From the NCBI RefSeq assembly GCF_003206615.1, contig NZ_PZJW01000004.1:124001-188000 (forward strand): a stretch of 64,000 nt of DNA. The letters are read 5' to 3'. The position numbers were made by a program, and so were the translations under genes. The notes below the pieces were generated by a model. That model made no database searches, was not told where the DNA came from, and worked only from the letters and a program-made list of their open reading frames with translations. Source of the DNA: Salinicola acroporae. Its GTDB lineage: Bacteria; Pseudomonadota; Gammaproteobacteria; Pseudomonadales; Halomonadaceae. Positions 29,218-45,877 of the stretch are shown here, piece after piece (position 1 is the stretch's first letter; each line of letters begins with the position of its first letter).

Positions 29218-30468
<1,251 letters not shown>

Positions 30469-43747: not shown

Positions 43748-43810
43748 ATCAGTTCCCCTTGCCGATCTGTTCGCAGTGGCTTGAGTCTGCGCGCGCTTGC
43801 GGATTCAATG

Positions 43811-43829
43811 AATCGAATAAAAATCGATT
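43811..43829. promoter_or_regulatory. Candidate LysR operator between EamA and LysR genes
   Basis: AATCGA-7 nt-TCGATT dyad in an AT-rich stretch 11 bp before the LysR start, in the 92-bp divergent gap. Short and weak; called from position as much as sequence. Confidence 0.4.
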
Positions 43830-43839
43830 GGAGTTCAAT

Positions 43840-44775
43840 ATGATTGAAGGCAGCTCCACGCTCGACCTCGAACTGCTTCGAACCTTCCAGGTCGTCGCCC
43901 GGACGGGCTCGCTGGCGGCCACGGCGGAGATCCGCCACCGCACGCTCAGCGCCATCAGCATGCAGATGAAGCGACTGGAGACCGAGCTGGACGTGCGGCT
44001 GCTCGAGCGTGGTGCGAGAGGCGTATCGCTGACCTCGAGTGGCGAGGTGCTGCTACAGGAAGCCCGCGAACTGCTGCGCGTTCACGACACCCTGGTCAGC
44101 CGATTCAGCGGCGAGCGCCTGAGTGGCCGCGTTCGACTGGGCATCCCCGAGGACTATGCCCGCGAGCTGCTCGACGATACCTTGCCCCAGTTCATGGCGC
44201 GCTATCCGGGCATTCTGCTGGACGTCAACACCGATACCAGCGGCCGACTGGCACGGGCACTCCGGAAGCGTCAGCTCGACCTGGCCATCGTGCTCGATCA
44301 TGCCTCGGGGCTGGAGGGCGGTGAAACGCTATGGCATCCCACGCCAGTATGGGCGGCACCGATTCAGGGCGCCATCCATCGGGAGGCGGTCGTGCCCCTG
44401 GCGGTGCATCCCGGGCAGTGTCCCTATCGTCATCTGGCGATCGAGGGGCTGGATTCGATCCAGCGAGCGTGGCGGACCGTCTTCACCAGCACCAGCATCC
44501 ACGCGGTGGAGAAGGCTATCGAGACTGGCATGGCGATCGGCGTGCTCGATCGCGAACGGGTCACCACGGCGATGCGGGCGCTGGACGAGAGCGACGGGCT
44601 GCCGCCGATCCGGCGATGCGTCGCCCGACTGCACTTCGCCCGGGGGATCGATGATGCATCGCAACCCGCTGTCGAGGCGCTGGCCCAGTTGCTCCGGGAG
44701 CGACTGCGCGGTCGCGGGCCCTGGCAGCGGGACGCCTTGAGTGGACGCGATGGCGGACAGCGGCCGCGAGCATAA
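43840..44775 (+). CDS. LysR-family transcriptional regulator
   Basis: 311 aa. HTH in residues about 6-63 (LELLRTFQVVARTGSLAATA, AISMQMKRLETEL) and an effector domain after. TTGGAG precedes the ATG; an earlier in-frame start at 43759 lacks a site. Divergent from the EamA transporter, probably its regulator. The stop codon overlaps the T-run of the sRNA terminator on the other strand. Confidence 0.88.
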   Translation: MIEGSSTLDLELLRTFQVVARTGSLAATAEIRHRTLSAISMQMKRLETELDVRLLERGARGVSLTSSGEVLLQEARELLRVHDTLVSRFSGERLSGRVRLGIPEDYARELLDDTLPQFMARYPGILLDVNTDTSGRLARALRKRQLDLAIVLDHASGLEGGETLWHPTPVWAAPIQGAIHREAVVPLAVHPGQCPYRHLAIEGLDSIQRAWRTVFTSTSIHAVEKAIETGMAIGVLDRERVTTAMRALDESDGLPPIRRCVARLHFARGIDDASQPAVEALAQLLRERLRGRGPWQRDALSGRDGGQRPRA

Positions 44776-44800
44776 AAAAAGCCGCCCCTGGCGGGGCGGC
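44774..44800 (-). terminator. Rho-independent terminator of the PrrF-like sRNA
   Basis: Minus strand GCCGCCCC-GCCA-GGGGCGGC followed by seven T. It is also 157 bp past the AEC gene, for which it could act as a secondary terminator. Confidence 0.88.
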
Positions 44801-44890
44801 ACTAAGGACCGTGACTAGCTTGATGAGGAGATAACCATGGCAGGAACCTGACATTCGCTGCTGTGGTCAGTGGCGTTTGGCGACGCCACG
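44774..44890 (-). ncRNA. prrF: PrrF/RyhB-like iron-responsive small RNA
   Basis: About 117 nt, no coding frame. In order: a 5' hairpin GTGGCGT/ACGCCAC; an unpaired core containing GGTTATCTCCTC and ATCAAGCTAGTCACGG, which I recall as the conserved core of Pseudomonas PrrF and Azotobacter ArrF; then a GC-rich terminator with seven T. The core is complementary to a ribosome site plus start (GAGGAGATAACCATG), so it would block translation of iron-using proteins such as sodB-type targets. The promoter overlaps a Fur box. Rfam PrrF membership was not tested. Confidence 0.78.
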
Positions 44891-44896
44891 AGAGAA

Positions 44897-44925
44897 AGGT
44901 TAATCATTCTCATTTGTGAATGCAA
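44897..44925 (-). promoter_or_regulatory. Promoter of the PrrF-like sRNA
   Basis: Minus strand TTGCAT (44925-44920), 17-bp spacer, TAACCT (44902-44897). Start near 44890. Confidence 0.65.
44898..44916. promoter_or_regulatory. Fur box over the sRNA promoter
   Basis: Minus strand CAAATGAGAATGATTAACC, close to the Fur core TGATAAT-N-ATTATCA in its left arm (TGAGAAT) and partly in its right. It covers the -10 and spacer, so Fe-Fur would repress the sRNA in iron-replete cells. Confidence 0.7.
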
Positions 44926-44956
44926 GCGTAACGAGAATCTTTTTTATTTGCAGCCG

Positions 44957-45877
44957 TCAACTCACGCCGAAGGTGTGCAGCAGCAAGGGCAGGGTCACCA
45001 TCGCCAGTAGCGTCTGCCCGGTGATCACGGCGGCCATCAGCTCGGCGTCGCCGCCCAACTGACGAGCCAGAATGTAGGCAGAGGTGGCGGTCGGCAGCGC
45101 GGCGAACAGTAGGGCCACGTCGCGATCCGCGCCATGGAGACCCACGGCCCAGGCCAGCGCTGCCACGACCAGTGGCGTCGCGATCAGCTTGAGCCCGCTC
45201 GACAGCCAGAATGCCTTGCCGCTGCGCCAGAGCGCCTGAGGCCGCAGGGCAACGCCCACCGCAACCAGCCCCAGCGGCAGTGCGGCATTGCCGAGCAGGC
45301 CGATGGCCTCGAAGCTCCAGCCGGGCAGACCGATGCCGCCGAGGTTCAGGGCGATGCCCAGCAGGCAGGCGAGAATCAACGGATTGCGCAGCAACGCCAT
45401 GGCGCTGCGGCCCAGGCTGGCGCTACCCAGCGTGCCGGAAGCGATGAACGCCAGTACGCAGAGGATGTTGGCCACGGGAACCATCAGCGCGACCGCGACG
45501 GCCGCTACCGTGGTGCCGGCGGCGCCATGCAGGGCCGTGGCACCGGCGACGCCGACATAGGTGTTGAAGCGCACCACGCCCTGGAAGGCGGAGGTGAAGG
45601 CGGCAGGGGCCAGTTGGAGGCGACGTCGCATCAGCCACAGCCCCGCGCCCATCAGCGTCATCGTGCCGAGTAGCGTCACTCCGAGTCGAATGACCGGTAC
45701 CTGGCTGACGTCGGCGGTGGCTAGCGTCGCCACCAGCATGGCCGGAAACAGCAGGTAGTAGATAAAGCGTTCGAGCCGTGGCCAGAAATCGCCGCCCGGA
45801 AAACGTGCCCATCCCAGCCCCGCACCGAGTAAAATCAATAGAAATAGCGGGCCCAGGGCGTTCGCGATGTCGCTCAT
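44957..45877 (-). CDS. AEC-family permease (auxin efflux carrier-like)
   Basis: 306 aa, ten predicted membrane helices. FIYYLLFPAMLVATLA, VRFNTYVGVAGATAL and LLFAALPTATSAYILARQLGGD are family hallmarks. Bacterial members include malonate and malate transporters; the substrate here is not predictable. About 67 bp downstream of its stop comes the sRNA promoter, reading the same way. Confidence 0.85.
   Translation of the reverse strand: MSDIANALGPLFLLILLGAGLGWARFPGGDFWPRLERFIYYLLFPAMLVATLATADVSQVPVIRLGVTLLGTMTLMGAGLWLMRRRLQLAPAAFTSAFQGVVRFNTYVGVAGATALHGAAGTTVAAVAVALMVPVANILCVLAFIASGTLGSASLGRSAMALLRNPLILACLLGIALNLGGIGLPGWSFEAIGLLGNAALPLGLVAVGVALRPQALWRSGKAFWLSSGLKLIATPLVVAALAWAVGLHGADRDVALLFAALPTATSAYILARQLGGDAELMAAVITGQTLLAMVTLPLLLHTFGVS

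Follow-up and report, generated by a model that had tools for sequence, protein, structure and literature searches.

The closest described relatives of the RNA discussed here are PrrF1 and PrrF2 of Pseudomonas aeruginosa, which are reported to be 116 and 114 nt long and to regulate acnA, acnB and sdh (PMC2851614). The tandem arrangement of prrF genes is described as confined to P. aeruginosa (PMC2851614), another account adds one P. denitrificans strain and one P. mendocina strain (PMC4211561), and a single copy is reported for P. pseudoalcaligenes (PMC6922518). ArrF of Azotobacter vinelandii has been published as an iron-repressed PrrF homologue (PMC2851614). RyhB of enterobacteria, NrrF of Neisseria and BrrF of Burkholderia are alike in their proposed function, which is iron sparing by pairing with mRNAs of iron enzymes, and BrrF is reported not to resemble any known Fur-regulated RNA in sequence (PMC7377471). 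In Halomonas bluephagenesis, PrrF1 of P. aeruginosa has served as an engineered scaffold (PMC13101641, PMC12164125, PMC13414033). A literature search that reached few subscription journals returned no published report of a native PrrF in the Halomonadaceae, which is weak evidence of absence.

A putative RNA gene of this type was found in Salinicola acroporae, within a contiguous 64-kb stretch of genomic DNA that was analysed as a whole and is called the window below (Table 1). Like PrrF1 and PrrF2, the RNA of approximately 117 nt has a putative Fur-type operator and a layout of hairpin, open core and terminator, and the two share the core UCUCCUCAUCA(A/G)GCUA(A/G)UCACGG (RF00444 consensus, L002). 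The Rho-independent terminator and the length near 115 nt, counted from a probable 5' end, are as expected of a PrrF RNA. Unlike the P. aeruginosa pair, the Salinicola RNA has AGUC instead of AAUC in its core, different hairpin sequences, an extra GAAUGUCAGGUUCC segment, an AEC permease gene and a LysR gene as neighbours, and a score under the Rfam cut-off. It is also a single copy, as an earlier sequence-only reading had proposed; RF00444 matches the genome once, and no second copy lies alongside as in the PrrF1-PrrF2 tandem with PrrH. Since a single copy is also reported for P. pseudoalcaligenes, this feature is not unique to Salinicola.

The same reading had listed a Fur box over the -10 element, a 5' hairpin, a core and a terminator with seven T within a gene-free gap of about 150 bp, and all of these parts were located there on the minus strand. 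The RNA gene lies in the gap that runs from the LysR stop (44775) to where the permease gene ends (44957), and no credible gene was recognized among the open reading frames in that gap. A 97-codon frame that starts there runs antisense through the LysR gene, and neither its start nor its frame is conserved across the Halomonadaceae. The terminator stem (44800-44781) comprises eight G-C pairs and a 4-nt loop followed by TTTTTTT, with the tail reaching 44774. At window positions 44773-44780 the LysR stop codon overlaps this tail, such that transcripts from the two genes would meet head-on; a scan of 44700-45000 returned no terminator on the plus strand.

Table 1. Predicted features of the Salinicola RNA locus, in window coordinates
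Feature	Position	Strand	Basis
PrrF-type small RNA, ~117 nt	44774..44890	minus	RF00444 match 44924-44773 and fold; probable 5' end
5' hairpin GUGGCGU/ACGCCAC, 7 bp	44870..44889	minus	fold and covariation
Second hairpin, containing family segment GAAUGUCAGGUUCC and closing immediately 5' of the core	44832..44869	minus	fold, conservation
Target-pairing core UCUCCUCAUCAAGCUAGUCACGG, 23 nt	44809..44831	minus	conservation, pattern counts
Rho-independent terminator with seven U	44774..44800	minus	terminator scan
Fur-box-like operator over the likely -10, two overlapping 13/19 matches	44893..44917	minus	consensus scan
Likely promoter: -35 TTGCAT (44925-44920), 17-nt spacer, -10 TAACCT (44902-44897)	44897..44925	minus	read by eye
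Weaker second Fur-like stretch upstream, two overlapping 12/19 matches	44927..44951	minus	consensus scan
AEC-type permease gene, upstream, same strand as the RNA	44957..45877	minus	Pfam Mem_trans
LysR-type regulator ORF, convergent with the RNA; stop codon meets the terminator tail	43759..44775	plus	

Evidence for homology to PrrF comes from several directions. When the region was searched by cmscan with an E-value limit of 10, RF00444 (PrrF) aligned over model positions 1-150 of 150 at 55.6 bits (E 3.1e-8), and the three matches that followed had E values of 0.96 to 6.2. Models of the RyhB family gave no match in the region even at E 10, so of the two covariance-model searches suggested beforehand, the PrrF search was positive below its gathering score and the RyhB search was negative. 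The gathering score of RF00444 is 90 bits, and routine annotation would therefore skip this RNA gene; across the whole window, no Rfam model matches at its gathering threshold. The core had been described as PrrF-like, and over its 23 nt it indeed differs by one base from that of L002, a sequence from another family that passes the Rfam cut-off at 127.5 bits. With up to three mismatches, the core pattern occurs once in the window, compared to a mean of 0.00 in 100 shuffles. A covariance model from the family (R1) gives the RNA gene 133.2 bits, a score to be read with the knowledge that the same sequence (L001) is in its training set. In a reciprocal search, a model built from 52 Halomonadaceae sequences found L002 (E 1.7e-12), L003, L006, L042 and L043, none of them in its training set, at E values from 1.7e-12 to 4e-8, and matched none of 14 control loci holding other genes up to E 10.

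The gathering cut-off is an annotation threshold and not a property of the RNA, and the reciprocal search supports homology. A convergent RNA of the RyhB type, similar in function and unrelated to PrrF, might explain a score under the Rfam cut-off, and RyhB-like RNAs without sequence similarity do exist, BrrF being one (PMC7377471). Such an origin is very improbable in view of the full-length RF00444 alignment (E 3e-8), the reciprocal search and a core only one base from that of L002. Because relatives, covariation and the reciprocal search all agree with the RF00444 match, the PrrF-like identity first proposed is upheld, and the Salinicola RNA is, on sequence comparison, a true PrrF homologue.

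The predicted structure is also conserved. Positions 44774-44891 fold at -48.2 kcal/mol (z -4.33, with none of 200 shuffles as good) into the 5' hairpin, second hairpin, core and terminator in that order. The description of the core as unpaired holds for its first 12 bases, which have predicted unpaired probabilities of 0.96-0.99, but not fully for the next five, which are partly paired (0.27-0.49). Across 91 sequences (a set from which L112 was omitted as too short), core bases 1-14 have a mean open probability of 0.69, below that of the window's own RNA; folded singly and judged by simple patterns, all 91 have the terminator stem and 84 the 5' hairpin. Covariation was assessed in an alignment of 52 Halomonadaceae sequences (A2), from which near-duplicates were removed, L069 was dropped because it has no T run, and L002, L003 and L006 were deliberately excluded. 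Standard pairs fill 96.4% of the cells of the 5' hairpin, and at six of its seven pairs both sides have changed, giving 60 such cells versus 16.5 in shuffles. The covariation score is 0.54 against 0.28 when shuffled, and sliding the partner strand abolishes the signal (0.20 or less). This hairpin is the only helix that RNAalifold recovers from the alignment.

Another conceivable reading is a dual-function RNA that would also encode a small protein starting at the conserved AUGUCAGG and reading MSGS..LLIKLVTV in many genomes. Among 41 dereplicated sequences, 17 do have ATG (15) or GTG (2) before TCAGG, in frame and 24 nt before the core frame. Yet in 13 of these 17 the 76 bases read from the core contain no stop codon, which takes the frame across the terminator. 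The remaining 24 of the 41 lack the start or the frame, and the hairpin itself explains the constant spacing. The small frame was rejected for its missing stops and its unkept start and frame, and a coding role is scarcely credible.

Transcription of the gene and its control by Fur would depend on the short stretch upstream. A promoter had been claimed there, and a -35/-10 pair is readable by eye; its match to the consensus is poor, and a scan with the sigma-70 consensus found no promoter at the RNA gene. At the -35 place, the majority bases among the 91 related sequences are TTGAC. Fur-box-like 19-mers at 44893-44911 and 44899-44917 each match 13 of 19 positions of the Fur consensus used here, and this level is reached at only three places in the 64-kb window, two of them at the RNA operator. 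With the same consensus, 82 of the 91 promoter stretches hold a 19-mer with at least 13 matches, versus 62 of 1820 base shuffles. The Salinicola site is one short of the 14 matches quoted for Fur sites in PMC6922518. The genome carries two Fur-family genes and one hfq gene. From these elements we infer that Fur controls the RNA and that transcription starts near the 5' end given in Table 1. Because the promoter is weak by consensus, the locus might instead be imagined as an untranscribed, decayed remnant or a chance resemblance. This is exceedingly unlikely for a gene whose core, operator, hairpin covariation and terminator are conserved across the Halomonadaceae.

The distribution of the RNA is considerably wider than one halophile. 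Counts were taken at E <= 0.01 because RF00444 at E 10 gives matches in 9 of 14 control genomes; at the stricter limit none of the 14 does. Matches were found in 39 of 58 genomes, made up of 35 of 37 Halomonadaceae (f1, with the Salinicola genome included) and 4 of 21 other genomes of the order (G037, G042, G055 and G056). Only G056 of the 58 passes the gathering cut-off, and none of the 35 matching Halomonadaceae genomes does. The match in G055 (L041) is doubtful, since it is weak (36.7 bits, R1 E 0.009), lacks the full core and may not be real. The two Halomonadaceae genomes with no RF00444 match at E <= 0.01 are G026 and G034. In a draw of genomes from the whole class, 3 of 369 match, all from the same order; this draw is less sensitive, as only eight candidates per genome were scored among the matches listed and weak matches are lost.

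A pattern search of named genomes with TCTCCTCATCANGCTAGTCACGGT returned 72 stretches. All come from named genera of the Halomonadaceae, from a 'Halomonadaceae bacterium', or from 'Gammaproteobacteria bacterium MFB021', which shares its exact RNA stretch with G015, a genome of the same genus as the window. Genomes of that genus also have RNA stretches identical to those of named Salinicola records. Salinicola, Phytohalomonas and Larsenimonas are members of the Halomonadaceae, as are the remaining genera. These 72 were picked by an exact core, and core invariance among them therefore proves nothing. Among the 35 Halomonadaceae genomes that the model detected, the core shows no more than one substitution in 33, one position being free to be A or G, and is altered in G019 and G036. 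Azotobacter, the host of ArrF, belongs to the Pseudomonadaceae. The expectation that a PrrF outside the pseudomonads, in a halophile, would widen the known range is borne out by these counts, and the impression of a lone find is overturned.

Gene order was compared by eye. In Salinicola it is permease, RNA, LysR, EamA and TrmB, with TrmB assigned from its likeness to neighbours elsewhere. In Chromohalobacter canadensis and Halomonas sp. McH1-25, the same permease and TrmB directly flank the RNA on either side. The RNA adjoins the permease in two Litchfieldella species and Halomonas sp. ML-15, and TrmB in Kushneria aurantia. Among the 12 loci inspected, different neighbours were seen in Cobetia (two), Halotalea, Carnimonas, Phytohalomonas and Larsenimonas rhizosphaerae.

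In ten named Halomonadaceae genomes, two copies are spaced no more than about 0.7 kb apart. These belong to L. rhizosphaerae, L. suaedae, L. salina, Carnimonas nigrificans, Bisbaumannia pacifica, Halotalea alkalilenta, Halomonas sp. McH1-25, Kushneria avicenniae, Modicisalibacter xianhensis and Phytohalomonas tamaricis, the last with an altered second copy and a third copy 4.8 kb away (loci L050, L056, L068, L046, L094, L113, L049, L077, L088 and L075/L112). In L. rhizosphaerae, Carnimonas and Halotalea no other sequence is closer than the sibling copy, a pattern expected of recent or homogenised duplications; this does not hold for McH1-25, L. suaedae and L. salina. The tandem copies are apparently of several origins, and a read-through product like PrrH could be made at such loci.

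Identifying the mRNAs that the core might pair with is less straightforward. The core had been described as the exact complement of a Shine-Dalgarno sequence plus start codon, which is true of an idealised sequence, but an exact target is absent from the genome. With three mismatches, TRGYTTGRTGRGGRGATAACC occurs in the RNA gene and at a single borderline place that uses all the mismatches allowed, a number equalled by the backward control, and TTGATGRGGRGR plus a start codon occurs only in the RNA gene itself; the proposed scan for perfect mRNA starts yielded nothing outside that gene's own opposite strand. Furthermore, the CUCCUC of the core pairs with any purine-rich Shine-Dalgarno sequence.

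The acnA gene offers a candidate site. Directly before its start, AUGAGGAGGAUAACC is predicted to form a duplex with the 5' portion of the core, interrupted by one bulge, at -27.4 kcal/mol, and none of 53 roughly called gene starts in the window reaches -26.6 kcal/mol. Of 18 Salinicola genomes, 16 retain ATGAGGAGGA, although it is partly the Shine-Dalgarno sequence itself. Aconitase starts were sought in 34 genomes, leaving out G023-G036, and in G018, G021 and G022 no other site in the stretch scanned pairs better than the acnA start (-30.5, -24.5 and -24.2); G019, G020 (two), G037, G042 and a further Salinicola aconitase (L229) were not judged, as the true start lay outside the stretch. The GATGRGGRG-N-RTG pattern has 38 matches in the Salinicola genome, the RNA gene included, versus 13 for a backward control. 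Of the other 37 places, 8 pair at -27.4 or better, down to -32.8, and most are unlike gene starts. Other places in the genome thus pair equally well, and acnA does not stand apart by its energy.

For acnB, 22 of 24 genomes that have a PrrF match carry GATGAGG ahead of the GTG start, and none of six that lack a match does, a comparison that is confounded by relatedness, includes one uncertain start among the six, and leaves out G015 along with G038, G043 and G047, the last three being genomes without a PrrF match. Of the 53 window genes, 14 reach the energy of the acnB pairing in Salinicola itself (-20.3), as do 10.5% of 200 shuffled cores.

For sodB, there are 9 contiguous pairs in G018 and 11 in G019, where an extra CAT in the core (L043 1600-1640) is matched by an extra GAT in the sodB leader (L142), which looks like co-variation of regulator and target. 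The longest pairing run does not separate genomes with PrrF (6-11) from those without (5-8). Pairing energy does so, at -15.8 to -26.6 in six genomes with PrrF versus -9.4 to -16.5 in five without, the latter being paired against the Salinicola core. The strongest superoxide dismutase match in Salinicola (L131 in the same genome as the window, and L117; two genomes were printed) carries GGGHANHSLFW, whereas the six other genera printed carry NAAQxWNH, and Chromohalobacter has a strong Fe-SodB match. The former motif is taken here to mark the Mn type and the latter the Fe type. No strong Fe-SodB match was found in Salinicola, whose second superoxide dismutase match is weaker (56 bits in the window's own genome).

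Other sites were noted along the way. The sdhC leader contains no clear pairing site; the strongest pairing in the sdh region (-28.0) is inside the sdhA coding sequence (L160 3277-3312) and not at a start. An ammonium transporter gene on the minus strand of the window (29218-30468) has a start region, aatgaggagacaaaagaATG, that pairs at -26.4, the joint best of the 53 window genes. An unbiased scan pointed to msrB, which was rejected as a conserved target because GATGAGGAG is present in only 6 of 18 Salinicola genomes and, outside Salinicola, in G032 only among the genomes whose start was read, with several starts missing or wrong.

Overall, the modest evidence favours acnA and acnB as the best target candidates, joined by sodB in genera with an Fe-type SodB. 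Perhaps the Salinicola RNA is a PrrF homologue whose targets have drifted, so that it mainly regulates mRNAs other than aconitases. The classic superoxide dismutase target seems lost, given an Mn-type motif in place of NAAQxWNH, the acnB pairing is no stronger than background, and other predicted sites pair as well as acnA. This remains rather unlikely, as none of the 53 gene starts in the window pairs as strongly as the acnA site and 16 of the 18 Salinicola genomes retain ATGAGGAGGA. With moderate confidence, an aconitase is the likeliest target in Salinicola.

The Salinicola RNA is very likely a Fur-repressed, and probably Hfq-dependent, PrrF homologue that spares iron by acting on mRNAs for iron enzymes, most likely those of acnA and acnB. 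Under this proposal, Fur would repress the RNA of approximately 117 nt. When iron is scarce, the RNA would be made, and its exposed core would pair, with Hfq bound, to the ribosome-binding sites of these mRNAs. Pairing would block translation and lower the amount of mRNA for the iron enzymes, probably the aconitases, and fewer iron enzymes would leave iron to spare. PrrF in Salinicola is an RNA of a known kind with a wider range, and its function is proposed by analogy and from predicted pairing.

A broader interpretation can be offered only tentatively. PrrF might be an old iron-sparing RNA of the wider order (as defined by GTDB) and need not have originated in the pseudomonads, with aconitase leaders as an anciently kept target and with regulator and target co-varying, as the CAT of the G019 core and the GAT of its sodB leader suggest. 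Tandem duplication would then have occurred several times outside P. aeruginosa, and in Salinicola the RNA would function with Fe-SodB seemingly gone.

These findings take PrrF beyond its Pseudomonas-centred range and into most of the sampled members of a halophile family used in biotechnology. That the Rfam cut-off hides the Halomonadaceae RNAs is a lesson on annotation thresholds. Native RNAs of this type are relevant to possible cross-talk with PrrF1 scaffolds and might themselves serve as home-grown scaffolds. Also, the natural single-copy and tandem variants would allow a comparative test of why P. aeruginosa keeps two copies.
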